This document shows, in pieces, positions 54,796 to 61,569 of a stretch of DNA of 64,000 nucleotides. The stretch lies in NCBI RefSeq assembly GCF_016100975.1, contig NZ_JACFRN010000004.1:1-64000 (forward strand). The letters are read 5' to 3'. The position numbers and the translations under genes were made by a program. The number at the start of each line of letters is the position of its first letter. Positions within the stretch are counted from its first letter, which is position 1. Below the pieces are notes generated by a model that made no database searches, was not told where the DNA came from, and saw only the letters and a program-made list of their open reading frames with translations. The stretch is from Lactobacillus sp. W8174. Lineage in GTDB: Bacteria; Bacillota; Bacilli; Lactobacillales; Lactobacillaceae.

Positions 54796-54826
54796 AAAAA
54801 CCAAACTTAAACAAGTTTGGTTTTTT
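54796..54826. terminator. lysC-dapF terminator
   Basis: AAAAACCAAACTT (54796-54808) / AAGTTTGG (54813-54820) followed by TTTTTT, with a four-base loop. Confidence 0.9.
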
Positions 54827-54956: not shown

Positions 54957-56078
54957 CTATCTTGGCAAACGTTCATTTCTCAATAAAAAGCGTTGAAATG
55001 GTTGATGAGGCTCAGTTTGATACCAATAAGCTACTGTTGCAATATCATCTGAACGTTCAAACAGACCAATATCATCATTACCTATATCTTGAAAAGTAAC
55101 TTTTAATTTTTTAGTAAAAGCTATTGGATCAGGCAAATGCCATCGGTACAACCCATGTTCTGGTAAGCCATCATTACCACAAGCATGAACAGAATTAGGA
55201 TCTGGTTTTCCTGCACTAAACATATCCCGCGAATGGTCTTGAGTTTCGTGAAACGGATAACCTTGATAGGCAGTTGAAAATGTATGAGTTTCTGGCAAAT
55301 GACCATATTCCTGTTTTTGAAAAGCCCAAGCACCACCAAAATAATCTTCTGCCCCAGTTGAAGTTACAGTAGGATATTGATTATCTTCATCAATATAAAA
55401 TTTAAATTCACCTTCACCCCACCAATATCTTTGTAAAGCACAAAGAGCCATATATGTGCCCACGTAATAGCCTTTGCCCTTTACTCCATCAAGTAAAGTA
55501 TAATCTTGTCCTATTTTTACTGGATTTTCGCGGTTCCAAAGCGCATGAAAATACAACAAATCTTCAGTTTTGGCTTTTTTAACATAATTTATAGTATAGA
55601 AAAAGTGTTTAAGAAATCCAGGGTGTTCATTTGTAATAGTAATTTTTGCATGTTTGTTAAAGGGCATTTTAAAGTAAGAATTCATGCCACCAAAGGGATT
55701 TACAACAATTGGTATAGAATTAACTATACATCTAGTTCCAAAACCATTACAGAAGAAGTCACCCAATGGGACTTCTACAGAAGGATTTTGCTCATTGTCC
55801 CAGTAAATTCTCAACACTAAATCCCTCAAAACAAAACTTCCCTTAGTTGTCTTGTCTGTAACTGTAAACCACATATGGCGAATTTCTCCTGGCCCAATAA
55901 TGTCAGCTAATGTTACTGTTTCTCCCTGTTCAAGTGAAATATCAGCACTTCCTTTTCTTTGTGGTCCTAGCTTGCCGGTTGCCATTGCTGCCTTTCCAGG
56001 AGCCCCTGTCTTATTTTCGGCAGAAATAGTCCTGCTTTGTTCATTTTTAAAATGTAATACATCATCTAAAGAGCTCAT
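54957..56078 (-). CDS. GH172 (DUF2961) glycoside hydrolase-like protein
   Basis: Protein of 373 aa matching the DUF2961/GH172 family, whose characterised members include difructose dianhydride I synthase/hydrolase and alpha-D-fructofuranosidases or alpha-D-arabinofuranosidases. N-terminal GPGEIRHMWFT, VPLGDFFCNGFG, then WWGEGEFKFYIDED (Glu222) and TSTGAEDYFGGAWAF (Glu244) are family-type; these two glutamates are the likely catalytic pair. There is no signal peptide, so it acts in the cytoplasm. It is the last gene of a LevR-controlled mannose-family PTS operon (10 bases after EIIA), implying that its substrate is the PTS-imported, probably phosphorylated, sugar. Confidence 0.88.
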   Translation of the reverse strand: MSSLDDVLHFKNEQSRTISAENKTGAPGKAAMATGKLGPQRKGSADISLEQGETVTLADIIGPGEIRHMWFTVTDKTTKGSFVLRDLVLRIYWDNEQNPSVEVPLGDFFCNGFGTRCIVNSIPIVVNPFGGMNSYFKMPFNKHAKITITNEHPGFLKHFFYTINYVKKAKTEDLLYFHALWNRENPVKIGQDYTLLDGVKGKGYYVGTYMALCALQRYWWGEGEFKFYIDEDNQYPTVTSTGAEDYFGGAWAFQKQEYGHLPETHTFSTAYQGYPFHETQDHSRDMFSAGKPDPNSVHACGNDGLPEHGLYRWHLPDPIAFTKKLKVTFQDIGNDDIGLFERSDDIATVAYWYQTEPHQPFQRFLLRNERLPR

Positions 56079-56088
56079 TCTTTACCAC

Positions 56089-56493
56089 CTACTCATCATC
56101 ATTTGAATCAGTTATATCATTTACTGATACTTGTAATAACTGCTGTCTTGCTTGATTAATTAAATTAGTGATATTAATTGGCTGATCATTTTTAACTGCA
56201 AGAGCTAGTGCTAATGCAAAGGGTAGATTAACCCCAGTGATTATATGAATCTTAGCAGATGCAAATTGACTCATAACTTGATTTACACTGCCAAAACTTA
56301 AGTCAGTAAGTATATAAAATTCGTCCGAATTATTTAATATCTTGCCAACTTTTTCCTTTAATTCATTTGTTCCTTCATTATTCATATAGGCACAAATGGC
56401 TGTGACAATTTTTTTATCTCCTGTCAGTCCAGCAAGGGTTTCTTGATAGCCCTGTGCAAGTGTATAGTGAGTTACAATAATAATCTTTTTCAT
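56089..56493 (-). CDS. PTS mannose-family EIIA
   Basis: 134 aa EIIA-man fold. Phospho-His is His9 in VTHYTLAQG (family consensus THG-x-FAxG, here with Y). Acidic C-terminal tail SNDDE. Supplies phosphate to the EIIB encoded first in the operon. Confidence 0.9.
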   Translation of the reverse strand: MKKIIIVTHYTLAQGYQETLAGLTGDKKIVTAICAYMNNEGTNELKEKVGKILNNSDEFYILTDLSFGSVNQVMSQFASAKIHIITGVNLPFALALALAVKNDQPINITNLINQARQQLLQVSVNDITDSNDDE

Positions 56494-56510
56494 TATTTTT
56501 CCTTACCTAA

Positions 56511-57329
56511 TTATTTTAAAAAGCCAAATGCTGCCCCAAACATTGCTATTACAATAAATAGTAAAATCACCCAAGTCATGTTCCACTTTTTAGATTTTAA
56601 AAGCTTATAAGCTAGCCAAACTAATAATGCTGGAATTAATTGTGGTAATATTTTATCCAACATAGGTTGAATTTGCATTGTAACTTTTCCAAATTGGAAT
56701 TTTAGTGGCGATGTAACAGATATAACGGATCCAATCAAAGAGCCTACAACTGTGATGCCTAAAACAGAAGCAGCTTCAGTTAAGTAATTTATCTTATCAC
56801 CATATTCTGTAATAACTTTAGAGCCTTGTCTATATCCAAACTCAAAACAATGCATACGTAGGAAAAAGATAATTGCTATTAAGATACCCCACAGAATAAT
56901 ACCGAATGGATTATTTTCCAAAGCCATATAAGCTGCTATTGAACCCATGATAGTTGGAATCATTGTCATTAGAAGAGAATCTCCTATTCCAGCTAGTGGT
57001 CCCATAGTACCAACTTTAAAATCATTAATAGCACTTTTAGCAGCTAACCCTTGTTTTTCTTCCATAGCAACACATGCTCCTAGAACAATAGCGGCTAACC
57101 ATGGTTGAGTATTATAATATTGAAAGTGATTGTCTAAAGCTTCTACATAATCATCATCTTTTTGATATATTTTACGTAAAATTGGGGATAGAGCATATGC
57201 AACAGAAGCCCCTTGTTGAGTCTCGTAGTTAAATGTCTCAACACTCATTAGCCAACGATAATTAGCTTTACGCAAATCTTTTTTTGTTACTATTGGGCCA
57301 TAAATATTTTCGTCTTCTTCTTTAGCCAT
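56511..57329 (-). CDS. PTS mannose-family EIID
   Basis: 272 aa. N-terminal cytoplasmic part (LTKKDLRKANYRW, ETQQGASVAYAL, MGPLAGIGDSL) typical of EIID-man, then membrane segments in the last third. One base separates it from EIIC. Length agrees with the family. Confidence 0.93.
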   Translation of the reverse strand: MAKEEDENIYGPIVTKKDLRKANYRWLMSVETFNYETQQGASVAYALSPILRKIYQKDDDYVEALDNHFQYYNTQPWLAAIVLGACVAMEEKQGLAAKSAINDFKVGTMGPLAGIGDSLLMTMIPTIMGSIAAYMALENNPFGIILWGILIAIIFFLRMHCFEFGYRQGSKVITEYGDKINYLTEAASVLGITVVGSLIGSVISVTSPLKFQFGKVTMQIQPMLDKILPQLIPALLVWLAYKLLKSKKWNMTWVILLFIVIAMFGAAFGFLK

Positions 57330-57330
57330 T

Positions 57331-58116
57331 TTATTCGTCCTCTCCTATACCTGAATTTGTATTTGCAGCCATGGCTTTAGCTTGTCCTTCTTTTTCAGCT
57401 TGCTTATAGGTTGTAAATGCAGCTGCAAAACCAATAATTGCAGCACCGATAATTGGCACTTTTAGAAAAGCAGCTAGAAAGAAACCAATTAATAAGTAAT
57501 TAACTAATTTACCTGTCGGCATATAATTTAACAGCATTGCAATACCTACGGCAGGTAACATTTCACCTGCTATAGTCAGTCCTGTCATGAACCATTTTGG
57601 CATAACTTGTAAAATAAAGTTCACGGCTGATTGACCTAAAGTGACGGCAATGAAAACTGGAATTGCTGCTGAAAGGCCAAAGAATAATGGTCCTAACCAA
57701 GTAACTGCACTCATTTTTTTAAATTGACGAGAATCTGCATAACTTTTTGCTTTTTTAGCCACGAATCCGTTTAGAATTTTAACAATAACATCTAATTGAA
57801 CTCCCAGCATTCCAACAGGTAAGCCTATTGCTAAACCAGCACTTTTACCCATTGAAACTCCAAAAGCAGTAGCAATGATCGCTGTTGTACCATAGTCTGG
57901 TACTGACGAACCACCAAAGCCAGCGACTCCTAATGACATTAGCTGAACTGTACCACCTACTAATAATCCGGTTTGTATATCTCCCATTATTATTCCGGTA
58001 AAAAGCCCCCAAAAAACAGGATAATTAACGAATAGCATAGGAATACCATAGTAATCAACGTGCTTTATAAAAGCTAAAAGCGTTAACAGAATAATTTGTA
58101 ATATTGAAAAATGCAT
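57331..58116 (-). CDS. PTS mannose-family EIIC
   Basis: 261 aa hydrophobic EIIC-man. Family features: GLFTGIIMGDIQTGLLVGGTVQLMSLG, then VPDYGTTAIIATAFGV. One-base spacing on both sides (EIIB stop, EIID start) shows tight coupling. Mannose-family EIIC members carry hexoses, hexosamines, fructose or modified sugars. Confidence 0.93.
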   Translation of the reverse strand: MHFSILQIILLTLLAFIKHVDYYGIPMLFVNYPVFWGLFTGIIMGDIQTGLLVGGTVQLMSLGVAGFGGSSVPDYGTTAIIATAFGVSMGKSAGLAIGLPVGMLGVQLDVIVKILNGFVAKKAKSYADSRQFKKMSAVTWLGPLFFGLSAAIPVFIAVTLGQSAVNFILQVMPKWFMTGLTIAGEMLPAVGIAMLLNYMPTGKLVNYLLIGFFLAAFLKVPIIGAAIIGFAAAFTTYKQAEKEGQAKAMAANTNSGIGEDE

Positions 58117-58117
58117 T

Positions 58118-58612
58118 TTAACTATTAACCTTACTTTCTAAAAACTCCTTAGTAACTTCTATTTCTTTATCAGCTGGAACATATTGAGAAAATAACTTGA
58201 CGCCTTTATCAATTAATGACTCATATACTGTTATTTCATGACTATCAGCAAAAGCTCGCTTAGAAATTTCTATGCCATTATCACGAGCTGTAGTACCGCC
58301 AATATTCAATTTTTCAATTGGAACACCGATTTTCACCAAATCCAAAAAAGTTTGTGGTTCTTTAGCCAGAACAAGTAGCTTTTCAGCATCATACTTACCA
58401 TTTTTAAAATTAGTCAAAGCCTTTTCTTCTGTAATAATGGAAATTGCATTTCCAGCTGGTCGTGCCATTTTCATAGTTGCCTTACTTATTGAATTATTTG
58501 CTGTTTCATCATCAATTACCATTACCCTGTTAGATCCAGATTGTGGAGCCCATTGAGTAACAATTATGCCATGAAGCAGTCTATTATCTATTCTTGCTAA
58601 AACAATACTCAT
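58118..58612 (-). CDS. PTS mannose-family EIIB
   Basis: 164 aa EIIB with phospho-His14 in ARIDNRLLHGIIVTQW. First gene of the operon; AAAGGA precedes the ATG. Sigma-54 promoter 63-78 bases upstream and a cre 39-52 bases upstream. Operon order EIIB-EIIC-EIID-EIIA-GH172. Confidence 0.93.
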   Translation of the reverse strand: MSIVLARIDNRLLHGIIVTQWAPQSGSNRVMVIDDETANNSISKATMKMARPAGNAISIITEEKALTNFKNGKYDAEKLLVLAKEPQTFLDLVKIGVPIEKLNIGGTTARDNGIEISKRAFADSHEITVYESLIDKGVKLFSQYVPADKEIEVTKEFLESKVNS

Positions 58613-58650
58613 TTTATTTTCCTTTCAAATGATACTAATGACTTCTATAT

Positions 58651-58664
58651 TACAATCGCTTTCA
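58651..58664 (-). promoter_or_regulatory. cre at the start site of the GH172/PTS operon
   Basis: On the minus strand TGAAAGCGATTGTA matches TGWAARCGNWWNCA at 13 of 14 positions. It lies 11 bases downstream of the -12 element, overlapping the expected start site. Confidence 0.7.
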
Positions 58665-58674
58665 CTAATTAATT

Positions 58675-58690
58675 AGCAAAAAGTGTGCCA
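58675..58690 (-). promoter_or_regulatory. Sigma-54 (-24/-12) promoter
   Basis: On the minus strand TGGCAC (58690-58685), five bases, TTGCT (58679-58675): GG and GC dinucleotides ten bases apart, the canonical RpoN pattern. Drives EIIB-EIIC-EIID-EIIA-GH172 with the LevR-type activator encoded next door. Confidence 0.88.
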
Positions 58691-58744
58691 ATTCAGTGTC
58701 AAAAAGCAGTTTGGCTTGATGTGAACCCTAAAATTAGAACAAAC

Positions 58745-58771
58745 TTGCGGGATCATATCACTTTTCCGCAA
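58745..58771. promoter_or_regulatory. Inverted repeat upstream of the sigma-54 promoter (candidate activator site)
   Basis: TTGCGG (58745-58750), 15 bases, CCGCAA (58766-58771), centred about 70 bases upstream of -24. Flanked by AAAAAGCAG (58701-58709) / CTGCTTTTT (58773-58781), which on the minus strand could alternatively form a long-range terminator for the regulator gene. Confidence 0.45.
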
Positions 58772-58814
58772 TCTGCTTTTTATATTATTTATTCCAGTTT
58801 AATACTATGATTTG

Positions 58815-58845
58815 GACACTATATCTAGGAATTATAAATAGTGTC
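58815..58845. promoter_or_regulatory. Second inverted repeat, next to the regulator gene end
   Basis: GACACTAT (58815-58822), 15 bases, ATAGTGTC (58838-58845), perfect 8-base arms. No T tract follows on the minus strand, so it is more likely an activator site or mRNA 3' structure than a terminator. Confidence 0.45.
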
Positions 58846-58851
58846 TGATTA

Positions 58852-61569
58852 TTATCTATCATAATTAAAAACTAACTCATATATATATTTTAGCTCTGTC
58901 TTAGGAATTCTAATATTATAGATTTCTTCAAGTGGGTGTAAAGCTAATTTTATTGTCTCAATCCCTTTTTCTTTTTCCTTACTGTCTGTAAAATTTCTTG
59001 GACTGTTCTCTAAGGACTGGTTGCGAATAATTCTTTCAATCATGCAACTAATATGCACATAAAGTGCCATTGTTGTTTGGTTTGATAATCTTTTATTGAG
59101 ATAATTATTCATTTTTTCAAGACAAAAACTAATGTTTTTTATAACTGCTTTAGTATCCAAAATTGTTAAGGAATTAATTACTCTTTCTATACTAAAGTTT
59201 TTAAGAATAGAATCATTAAATTTATATAAATCTTGTTTGCTTAGGATACCCTGTAAAGAATCTTTTAATGTAGTTAATTTAGATCCATTTACAAGTTGAT
59301 CAATTGAAATATATGGGATTTTTTCATATCCAGGGTTCACAGTACCTATAATTGTCAGAATATTATATTTTCTTTTAAGAGTATTTTCCTGGTCTTCTAT
59401 CTTTAATGAGTCGTAAGAATATGCCTTCACCATTATTTTGGCTTTATTTGGTAAGCTATCTTTAATCATTGTTTTTATTTTTTCAGCCGTTCCTATTCCA
59501 GTTGTACAGCAAACAATGATAACATTCTGCTTGATCATCTTAGGATATATAATACGATAATCATTATGAATAACTTGATTTAAATTTTTAGCCATAGCTG
59601 ACAAAGGTTTTTTCTTTTTAATATACTCAGCAGCAAACAATGCTAATTGGGTTGATACGTTATTAAAAATAACTATAGGAAAGTTTATTTCCGTTTTTAT
59701 TAATTCAGGTATCTTTTCTAAGGAACCCATATCTGCCATTAATATTATTCCCTTAGTGACATGTCTTACACGAATATAGTTTGCTACTTTTTGAGCTATA
59801 TCTTCAGGTTTAATATCAATTGGCATATCAAAAGAATCCAGCAATGGTTCACCTATTATTTTGTTAACCGTGTCAGCAATACTGCTTGCAGTGGAATAGC
59901 CATGTGCTAACAATATGCAATGAATTAAATTAGAATTAATATTTCTTTTTATACTTTCAAGATAAATAGTCAGAAACATTCTGTCTACTTCATCAGTATA
60001 CAAGTTCAGAGTTTTGCTTATAGTATCCAAGATTACCTGCACAATTTGCTTAACGTAGGTTACTTCATTTAATTTCGCAGTGATTTCTCTAATCAATTGG
60101 TTTTCTTTAGAAGAAATTGGCCAGTGATTCTCCTGTCGAAAATAAAAGTAATAAGAAATAGCTACAATAATGTTGCCATTAAAGTCATTATTAAAATCAT
60201 TCCGCAAATAGCCTACTTCTTGGTTAAGTGTGTTTTTTATCAAATTTAAGGGTAATTCTCCTATGTTCAAGTCATCTTTCTTAAAAATTAAATAATCACA
60301 CAGAGAGTTAACAACATCAAAAGCTTTTGATCTAAACTGTAAAAAGTCCTCTTTTTGATATAACAAGTATATCTTTTGGATCGCTTTATTAATATAATTA
60401 GTGCTATTTTCGCTTTCAATAAAGTCAGTAATTTTACTAGTAGGTTTAATATTCAAGTCCGCACTACTTTTGACTGAATTATTATTTTCAGCTAAACTTG
60501 AAGGCAAAATATCTTGTGGCAAATCCGCAAGTTTAATACTTATAATTTTAGAATTAATATCTTTTTCCAAAGCACTGGCAACAGACAATAAAATATCATT
60601 TTTTAATTGTCCAATATTATTTTGATAGTTAATATTGCTCAGCGTTAAGAAAACTTGATTATTAATTTTAAAGCTTTTGTTGATCTTTTGAGCATGTTGA
60701 ATATAAAAATAAATAATTAAAGCACGAATCTCATTTTGTGTACGCTCTTTCAAAGGAGGCATTGAAATTTGAACTGGGATTCTTCTAATAAATGTCTCTA
60801 GGAAGCTACTCTGAATATCTTCTGTAGTCGCACAAATTAACCTTACATTTACTTTTTTCTTATTTCCTGCATCTCCTAAAGCTGAAATACTGCCACTATC
60901 TAAATATGAAAAAAGTTTTTCTTGTCCTTTGGCATCTAGTCTGTGAACTTCATCTAGAAAGAGCATGCCTCCATCGGCTTCATCAAAAAGCCCAAGATGA
61001 TTACTATCTGCGCCAGTGAAAGCTCCCTTTACATAACCAAATAGAGTTCCCGTCAGCAGTTCTGGATTATCCGCATATTCCGCACAATTAAAACTGACAA
61101 ATTTACCATCTTTAGAAATGTAATCTTCTGCTACACAATATTCGAAATACTTTCGTGCGATATAGCTTTTACCTGTTCCTGTTTGTCCATTAATAAGAAT
61201 TGGTAAGCTTCCTGGGTATGATGCAGCTGCTTTGAGTTTTTTTATTTGGCTATAAAGTGATTTATCATGTCCAATTACGTTATTAAAGACATCTTCATCA
61301 CGATACTTTTTCTGTAACTCTTTTATACTGCTATACTCATTGTCTAATACACATCCTGATTTTTTCTCAGCAATTTTTTTTAAAATAAATACTGCTGGGC
61401 GTGTATTAATTTTTATTAATTCATTTTCTTTAACTAACTGATTTAGATAGTGACTAACTGTATTACGTTTAAGGCTAAGTTTTTCTGCCAAATCAGTAGT
61501 TGATAAATACTGATTGTTTTCCTGTTGGCTTTTTTTAATTAAAGTTAACACTTTTTGCTTTACATTCAT
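58852..61569 (-). CDS. LevR-type sigma-54 activator with PRD and EIIA/EIIB-like domains
   Basis: Transcriptional activator of 905 aa. N-terminal winged helix-turn-helix (about 5-60); AAA+ sigma-54 activator domain (about 90-330) with Walker A GQTGTGKS (128-135), GAFTGA (182-187) and Walker B FLDEVH (204-209); then PRD1 (about 420-530), an EIIA-man-like domain (LLAHGYSTASS), an EIIB-gat-like domain (VCCTTGIGTAEK) and PRD2 at the end. As in B. subtilis LevR, PTS-dependent phosphorylation should report sugar availability and switch on the adjacent sigma-54 promoter. It needs RpoN, not encoded here. Confidence 0.93.
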   Translation of the reverse strand: MNVKQKVLTLIKKSQQENNQYLSTTDLAEKLSLKRNTVSHYLNQLVKENELIKINTRPAVFILKKIAEKKSGCVLDNEYSSIKELQKKYRDEDVFNNVIGHDKSLYSQIKKLKAAASYPGSLPILINGQTGTGKSYIARKYFEYCVAEDYISKDGKFVSFNCAEYADNPELLTGTLFGYVKGAFTGADSNHLGLFDEADGGMLFLDEVHRLDAKGQEKLFSYLDSGSISALGDAGNKKKVNVRLICATTEDIQSSFLETFIRRIPVQISMPPLKERTQNEIRALIIYFYIQHAQKINKSFKINNQVFLTLSNINYQNNIGQLKNDILLSVASALEKDINSKIISIKLADLPQDILPSSLAENNNSVKSSADLNIKPTSKITDFIESENSTNYINKAIQKIYLLYQKEDFLQFRSKAFDVVNSLCDYLIFKKDDLNIGELPLNLIKNTLNQEVGYLRNDFNNDFNGNIIVAISYYFYFRQENHWPISSKENQLIREITAKLNEVTYVKQIVQVILDTISKTLNLYTDEVDRMFLTIYLESIKRNINSNLIHCILLAHGYSTASSIADTVNKIIGEPLLDSFDMPIDIKPEDIAQKVANYIRVRHVTKGIILMADMGSLEKIPELIKTEINFPIVIFNNVSTQLALFAAEYIKKKKPLSAMAKNLNQVIHNDYRIIYPKMIKQNVIIVCCTTGIGTAEKIKTMIKDSLPNKAKIMVKAYSYDSLKIEDQENTLKRKYNILTIIGTVNPGYEKIPYISIDQLVNGSKLTTLKDSLQGILSKQDLYKFNDSILKNFSIERVINSLTILDTKAVIKNISFCLEKMNNYLNKRLSNQTTMALYVHISCMIERIIRNQSLENSPRNFTDSKEKEKGIETIKLALHPLEEIYNIRIPKTELKYIYELVFNYDR

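Follow-up and report, generated by a model that had tools for sequence, protein, structure and literature searches.

The 64,000-nucleotide stretch of Lactobacillus sp. W8174 analysed here (positions 1 to 64,000 of contig NZ_JACFRN010000004.1; hereafter the window) contains an operon in which the genes of a LevR-type activator and of a mannose-family phosphotransferase system (PTS) are followed by a gene for a glycoside hydrolase of family GH172 (DUF2961). On the evidence of sequence comparison, and with a probability only a little above one half (about 0.55), this operon is read as an inducible system, comparable to lev and scr, for uptake and hydrolysis of a small alpha-D-fructofuranoside such as a difructose compound or a similar disaccharide. 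Chance does not account for the pairing of GH172 with a PTS.

GH172, a family named in 2021, is patchily distributed, being present in 9 of 75 genomes of the genus (protein search) and 11 of 397 genomes of the family (profile). One hundred GH172 loci (L024-L123) were compared: 19 came from these two surveys, one is the window, and named genomes were scanned for the others, which are the best 80 of at least 588 confirmed GH172 relatives. The transport genes nearby encode a mannose-family PTS at 24 loci, permeases of the ATP-binding cassette (ABC) type at 45 and a permease of the major facilitator superfamily (MFS) at 16, with none recognised at 15. With two duplicates removed (L044 of L024 and L070 of L030), the co-occurrence of GH172 with a mannose-family PTS, for which, together with LevR-type genes, the initial annotation had proposed a search, recurs at 22 distinct loci among the 100 examined. 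At 21 of these, the PTS genes are followed by GH172 with either no recognised gene or one GH125-like gene in between. Type I (13 loci, in Lactobacillus including L. kimbladii, another genus of Lactobacillaceae, Sporolactobacillus, Trichococcus, Enterococcus raffinosus and Collinsella) has the order LevR-EIIB-EIIC-EIID-EIIA-GH172, with a ROK kinase in six; type II (7 loci, in Lactobacillaceae and Enterococcus) has the order EIIA-EIIB-EIIC-EIID-GH125-like-GH172 and also includes LevR, five of its loci having a ROK kinase and four rpoN; and L029 has a third arrangement. L030, in which two genes separate EIIA from GH172, is not counted as coupled because of these intervening genes and because PTS related to its own, in the window's own genome (L192) and in L189, occur without GH172.

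On a GH172 tree of 97 rows (L028, which is split, and the duplicates L044 and L070 were dropped), made by a quick method, the PTS label changes 3 times, compared with a mean of 19.3 for shuffled labels; types I and II are each supported, and an MFS-linked group from Gilliamella, Frischella and Anaerobiospirillum is adjacent. On an EIIC tree of 50 rows, which carries a long-branch warning that includes L029 and type II and in which the deep joins are weak, type I (12 rows, support 99) stands apart from type II (7 rows, support 100) with other PTS between them, and the EIIC of L029 falls outside both types on a long branch. That the two types possess different kinds of EIIC is also shown by identity to the EIIC of the window, which is 32-38% for the type II Lactobacillaceae loci and L029, compared with at least 74% for the type I matches of the genome search described next. 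At least two separate EIIC lineages, and probably a third, are paired with GH172.

The association also holds when it is approached from the transporter, by searching 395 Lactobacillales genomes with the EIIC of the window (E at most 1e-60) and with a type II EIIC (E at most 1e-70). Five matches to the former have at least 74% identity (the window, G082, G549, G504 and G747) and the remainder at most 53%; all five have GH172 directly downstream, and GH172 is found in none of the 12 fetched regions, a part of the remainder, in which the EIIC is at most 53% identical. In eight of these 12 the PTS is accompanied by GH13 and/or GH31 genes; the other four have NIF3-like and/or antiterminator-like genes instead. 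Both matches to the type II EIIC with at least 75% identity have GH172, whereas all nine at 49-56% identity are without it and have a GH13-type gene beside the PTS. Overall, GH13 or GH31 accompanies the PTS in 17 of 21 distant regions (Pfam-confirmed for all seven proteins tested, the other labels being given by N-terminal sequence likeness), and the three GH13 proteins tested with NCBIfam all scored best against alpha,alpha-phosphotrehalase models, passing the cut-off of the broad model PRK10933 but not that of TIGR02403. Because GH172 occupies a slot mostly filled by other glycosidases in related PTS operons, we argue that this PTS carries a di- or oligosaccharide.

The assignment of the hydrolase to GH172, originally made from the sequence alone, was upheld by a match to the DUF2961 profile (PF11175, E 2.2e-84; 283 bits, the cut-off being 27) and by retention of both glutamates, Glu222 and Glu244 aligning with Glu270 and Glu291 of alphaFFase1, the acid/base and the nucleophile of that enzyme (PMC8605356; this and the other papers cited by PMC number are represented here by excerpts). 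As also proposed earlier, no signal peptide is visible by hydropathy of the first 50 residues, where the best 12-residue mean is 0.17. The solved relatives found by sequence are ExoMA1 (8ic8), alphaFFase1 (7v1v), BACUNI_00161 (4kq7) and 8ah3. A structure model (predicted local confidence, pLDDT, 88.8; predicted template modelling score, pTM, 0.90) has the double jelly-roll fold, and a PDB fold search with it returned seven top chains from four entries, all GH172/DUF2961, with template modelling (TM) scores to the query of 0.72-0.83 (0.83 for 8ic8, 0.72 for alphaFFase1), followed by double-jelly-roll capsid proteins at 0.39 or less.

The predicted -1 subsite residues W219, E222, E244, D245 and W251 are invariant across 91 aligned rows (the 97 minus six distant ones, L033, L035-L038 and L042). 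F160 also belongs to this subsite, taking the position of Y187 of alphaFFase1 in a profile alignment (the single-sequence alignment is shifted there); the Y187F variant of alphaFFase1 kept 90% and 31% activity (PMC8605356). Selection between fructose and arabinose is attributed to G299 in alphaFFase1 and to N253 in the arabinose-specific ExoMA1, the side chain of which blocks fructose (PMC10509167). This block is absent from the GH172 of the window and from its clade of 37 rows, all of which, every PTS-linked row included, have Ala at this position (A252; 13/13, 7/7, 13/13 and 4/4 in four groups), so that fructose should fit the -1 pocket. In the +1 subsite, E85 and K147 of alphaFFase1 are needed for inulobiose (PMC8605356), and neither is kept: K147 meets N127 or an insertion, and nothing in the enzyme of the window aligns with the stretch around E85. 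The other half of the substrate therefore probably differs from that of alphaFFase1, and the difructose anhydride (DFA) I synthase/hydrolase subtype represented by that enzyme is rejected.

The transporter has all four component families of a mannose-family EIIABCD complex (Pfam EII-Sor 2.6e-69, EIID-AGA 2.3e-85, PTSIIB_sorb 4.7e-44 and EIIA-man 1.1e-12), and alignment with solved relatives shows the phosphate-carrying histidines to be retained in EIIA and EIIB. None of the four proteins reaches the NCBIfam cut-off of any subfamily or named specificity listed. The regulator (Pfam Sigma54_activat 1.1e-41, PRD 6.9e-10) is a sigma-54 activator of the LevR type, with a GAFTGA motif and with PRD and EIIA-like domains, and would act at a predicted -24/-12 promoter. 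No other place on either strand of the window matches the sigma-54 consensus exactly, and three places match with at most one mismatch. The genome has one copy of rpoN. All 17 distinct LevR-linked loci of Bacillota have a -24/-12 site, with one mismatch or none, near the called start (the longest possible) of the first PTS gene. No such site is found upstream of the PTS genes at four Collinsella loci, nor at L030, where the contig begins 328 bp before EIIB and the regulator is out of view. The motifs of the regulators are consistent with this distribution: 15 aligned LevR proteins of Bacillota have GAFTGA (11), GAYTGA (3) or GSYTGA (1), that of L026 being left out as cut by the end of the stretch, and the one aligned LevR-like protein of Collinsella (L048) has lost the sigma-54 contact motif. 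The PTS-GH172 operon of Collinsella (L048, L049, L050 and L059) thus seems to be sigma-54-independent. A D-glucosaminate (DagR) operon was considered and rejected, the regulator scoring 505 bits against a cut-off of 1400, and a sigma-70 promoter scan gave results near the shuffled expectation.

Two further features bear on the products of hydrolysis. Directly after the invariant R284-x-x-F287-x-x-G290, Lys291 is present in all 25 PTS-coupled rows (17 of type I including L029 and 8 of type II, near-copies included), and Lys is found in none of 18 relatives that share the loop, where the position is occupied by Asp (11), Glu (1) or Gln (1) in MFS-linked rows, Asp (2) or Glu (2) in the group of L030, L031, L041 and L057, and Asp in the ABC-linked L065; the remaining 59 rows are without the loop, L123 matching the pattern by chance, with Glu. 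Lys291 is a candidate phosphate contact. Because the -1 pocket is unchanged, a phosphate, if present, is placed on the +1 sugar, and free fructose would then be released, which fits the second feature, a ROK kinase near GH172 at 11 of the 22 distinct PTS loci. The ScrK fructokinase model NF045550 is the best for all eight kinases scored (L034, 420 bits; L047, 402; L069, 397; L063, 391; L046, 387; L061, 357, from a short open reading frame; L039, 291; Collinsella L048, 226), two of which exceed the cut-off of 400 bits; the other three of the 11 kinases are those of L027, which is in two pieces, L049 and L050. The kinase of L185, a locus probably from the strain of L046, scores 382 bits. Fructose as a product is suggested by the ScrK-like genes in the vicinity of half of the loci. 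The ScrK of the window's genome (415 bits) belongs to a different LevR-PTS operon that also encodes a GH32-like protein (L150:1304-9527, contig C8). That operon, in which a glyoxalase-like gene was noted by eye as well, is likely a beta-fructoside counterpart. GH32-like proteins are adjacent to some ABC-linked GH172 as well, for example in Paenibacillus.

In the proposed mechanism, presence of the sugar would lead LevR and sigma-54 to switch on the EIIBCDA-GH172 transcript, as the promoter and the domains of the regulator suggest, and the EIIABCD complex, judged by its PTS family, would bring the sugar in and phosphorylate it. Cytoplasmic GH172 is predicted from its residues to split the alpha-furanosidic bond by the retaining two-Glu mechanism of the family. 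The fructosyl unit in the -1 pocket, being unphosphorylated, would thereby be released as free fructose, and its partner as a sugar phosphate. The fructose would pass to a ScrK fructokinase, for which half of the relatives have a gene near the operon and the window's genome has one elsewhere. This scheme would parallel scrA-scrB-scrK for sucrose, with GH172 replacing GH32. A more specific proposal, to which we give slightly less than an even chance, is that the GH172 of these operons is a phospho-alpha-D-furanosidase that arose when GH172 took the hydrolase slot of mannose-family PTS of the disaccharide type, that a change of charge to Lys291, in a loop after the catalytic segment, lets the enzyme admit a PTS-derived phosphate on the +1 sugar, and that the operon is the alpha-fructofuranoside counterpart of scrABK.

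Several observations weigh against these proposals. With its +1 residues lost, the substrate of alphaFFase1 cannot simply be transferred to the enzyme of the window. A plain comparison of columns finds no basic residue specific to PTS-linked GH172 relative to the MFS-linked clade. For the basic phosphate pocket that the initial annotation proposed to look for, Lys291 of the PTS-coupled rows is a candidate residue, but it became visible only after an alignment gap was corrected and lies in a loop modelled at a pLDDT of about 60. The Lys291 pattern also represents only one or two evolutionary events, since a tree of 43 rows built without the Lys291 stretch needs two changes and does not reject a single common origin (approximately unbiased test, p 0.34). 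As for the fructokinases, six of the eight scores are under the curated cut-off, lowest in Collinsella (226 of 400 bits); the operon of the window itself has no fructokinase gene; and none was recognised near GH172 at 11 of the 22 loci, among them L059, which is cut by the end of its contig.

The best placed alternative, although unlikely, is that the PTS imports the disaccharide unphosphorylated and GH172 cuts the plain sugar as its relatives do, with a -1 pocket that is indeed the same as in ABC- and MFS-linked relatives; against it stand Lys291, which replaces an acidic residue (Gln once) solely in PTS-coupled rows, the phosphotrehalase-like group to which the three tested GH13 proteins beside related PTS belong, and the C6 hydroxyl that fructofuranose possesses. 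L. casei alfEFG, a mannose-class PTS reported to take up fucosyl-alpha-1,3-N-acetylglucosamine in unphosphorylated form, offers a precedent that also speaks against the phosphorylation proposed above, but its authors link it to fucose being without a C6 hydroxyl (PMC6109692). Also unlikely, and ranked below this, is an alpha-D-arabinofuranoside as substrate, whereby the PTS would import a short D-arabinan fragment and GH172 would be an exo-alpha-D-arabinofuranosidase: ExoMA1 is the closest solved structure both in sequence (E 4.6e-67) and in fold, and alphaFFase1 cleaves both sugars (PMC8605356). The small A252 in place of the blocking N253 of ExoMA1, the best fit of nearby kinases to the ScrK model and the content of the window operon, which is limited to regulator, PTS and GH172, all disfavour it. 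It is improbable that GH172 serves another purpose, such as intracellular synthesis of difructose anhydride or handling of by-products, while the PTS carries an ordinary hexose, as mannose-family PTS often do, given that the inulobiose residues E85 and K147 of alphaFFase1 are not kept, that all seven close EIICs from the genomes searched have GH172, and that other glycosidase genes are present in 17 of the 21 distant PTS regions fetched. Chance proximity of an ordinary mannose PTS to an unrelated gene, for which it can be said that 16 mannose-family EIIC genes in a genome of 2.05 Mb are expected to have some such neighbours, is highly improbable in view of the recurrence in several families and separate EIIC lineages and of the few label changes on the GH172 tree, and it is rejected together with ordinary mannose uptake by the recurrence and reverse EIIC tests.

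All genes of the fructofuranoside operon proposed here are on the minus strand (Table 1), transcribed in the order LevR-EIIB-EIIC-EIID-EIIA-GH172 and flanked by dapF on one side and an alpha/beta hydrolase gene on the other. The intergenic gaps are 239 bp (LevR-EIIB), 1 bp (EIIB-EIIC), 1 bp (EIIC-EIID), 17 bp (EIID-EIIA) and 10 bp (EIIA-GH172). The adjacency and gene order described initially are correct, with 10 bp at the junction where GH172 was said to follow the PTS without a gap. The GH172 protein and its counterpart in L. kimbladii, a honeybee species, share 97% identity. A terminator scan called one site, compared with 3.2 expected, and did not call the inverted repeat listed in Table 1.

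Table 1. Features of the PTS-GH172 operon in the window
Feature	Position	Strand	Evidence or remarks
LevR-type transcriptional activator	58852..61569	-	Helix-turn-helix, sigma-54 AAA+ (Walker A GQTGTGKS, GAFTGA), EIIA-like domain, PRD
Sigma-54 (-24/-12) promoter TTGGCACACTTTTTGCT	58675..58691	-	TTGGCAC-ACTTT-TTGCT, 79 nt upstream of EIIB start codon
EIIB, mannose/sorbose family	58118..58612	-	Phosphorylatable His in RIDNRLLHG kept; aligned with 1nrz, 1ble
EIIC, mannose/sorbose family	57331..58116	-	Pfam, NCBIfam, EIIC tree
EIID, mannose/sorbose family	56511..57329	-	Pfam, NCBIfam profiles
EIIA, mannose family, divergent	56089..56493	-	His9 aligns with N-terminal His of solved EIIA proteins
GH172 (DUF2961), predicted cytoplasmic alpha-furanosidase	54957..56078	-	E222 acid/base, E244 nucleophile, A252, K291
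A/T-rich inverted repeat and T run, possible terminator shared with convergent dapF	54796..54825	-	By eye

Other genes were noted at related loci. In G006, the GH172 gene of an otherwise intact type I operon is broken into a pair of overlapping frames (L028:8061-9324). A further PTS operon, represented by L192:4798-9159, L189 and L195, contains an antiterminator-like gene and, in L192 and L195, also encodes a NIF3/DUF34-like protein. All seven type II operons encode a protein of approximately 700 residues between EIID and GH172 (L026:4300-6450, L032, L034, L039, L061, L063 and L069). Pfam scans of five of the seven copies gave GH125 below the cut-off in L026, L039, L061 and L063, and L034 gave nothing at E 1; L069 gave only an unrelated chance-level match, no meaningful PDB sequence match was obtained, and the structure model (pLDDT 43.7) is unusable. 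With its sub-threshold similarity to GH125 and six-hairpin proteins, this protein possibly represents an unclassified glycosidase family. A different partner beside GH172 in L029:4796-7666 (956 residues) and L041:9997-12573 (858 residues), the two being 57% identical, has no Pfam family and only chance-level PDB matches. The type II operons of L026 and L032 lie directly upstream of rpoN, followed by genes resembling, by eye, aldo/keto reductase, lactate dehydrogenase and Cas9; the same rpoN place in the window's genome (L152) is without a type II GH172 operon. In the bee-gut genera Gilliamella and Frischella (L052-L056, L058, L060, L062, L064, L066 and L067, and the uncultured L051), a sister GH172 is found by a LacY-like permease and a LacI regulator, and a substrate common to the bee-gut niche is possible. 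Excerpts of a Gilliamella paper (PMC11325843) do not mention GH172, DUF2961, difructose or fructofuranosidase.

The operon of the window shares with the lev operon of Bacillus subtilis (levDEFG-sacC, LevR, sigma-54) an activator of the LevR type, a -24/-12 promoter, a mannose-family PTS and a sugar hydrolase, but its hydrolase is GH172 with no visible signal peptide, whereas the fructan hydrolase of lev is a secreted GH32. With the scrA-scrB-scrK genes it would share a PTS, an intracellular fructosidase and the ScrK fructokinase, although the scr PTS is of another family and its GH32 acts on a beta-fructofuranoside. The likeness to lev put forward by the initial annotation extends to regulator, promoter, PTS and hydrolase layout, while closer layouts are those that combine a PTS with an intracellular glycosidase, namely gnb, the hyaluronan system and the GH13/GH31-linked PTS described above. 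In L. casei gnb, a mannose-class PTS imports and phosphorylates a disaccharide that an intracellular glycosidase cuts, the latter being GnbG of GH35 (PMC6109692); in streptococci, a mannose-family PTS for hyaluronan disaccharide is joined by a cytoplasmic hydrolase for the imported disaccharide, but this is an unsaturated glucuronyl hydrolase (UGL) with another substrate (PMC6837340).

Among characterised GH172 enzymes, alphaFFase1 (BBDE_2040), the DFA I synthase/hydrolase of Bifidobacterium dentium, is 28% identical to the GH172 of the window in a structural alignment and has in common with it the fold, the catalytic glutamates, the -1 subsite, the absence of a secretion signal and a fructose-sugar context, but differs in having ABC transporter and GH32 neighbours and no PTS, E85 and K147 at +1, and a long C-terminal helix (PMC8605356). 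ExoMA1, an exo-alpha-D-arabinofuranosidase of Microbacterium and the closest solved relative (38% identity, TM 0.83), differs by N253 and by its neighbours, a putative ABC transporter and D-arabinan enzymes, with no PTS (PMC10509167). The GH172 members described in excerpts of the literature have unphosphorylated alpha-D-fructo- or arabinofuranosides as their substrates (PMC8605356, PMC10115798, PMC10509167) and, where a transporter is named, are served by ABC or SusCD-type uptake; a phospho-furanosidase specificity is not described in these excerpts. No paper joining GH172 to a PTS was found among those listed in searches of the open PMC literature, and in the excerpts of an open PMC paper that names both, the genes belong to different organisms.

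The pairing of GH172 with a PTS suggests an unrecognised route for eating unusual fructose sugars. If the proposed function is correct, the PTS-coupled branch of GH172 would represent a phospho-glycosidase with a new specificity, Lys291 would be a test case for the adaptation of glycosidases to phosphorylated substrates, and the operon would account for a possible use of difructose sugars, for instance those of caramelised sugar, by some lactic acid bacteria and perhaps also by bee-gut symbionts.

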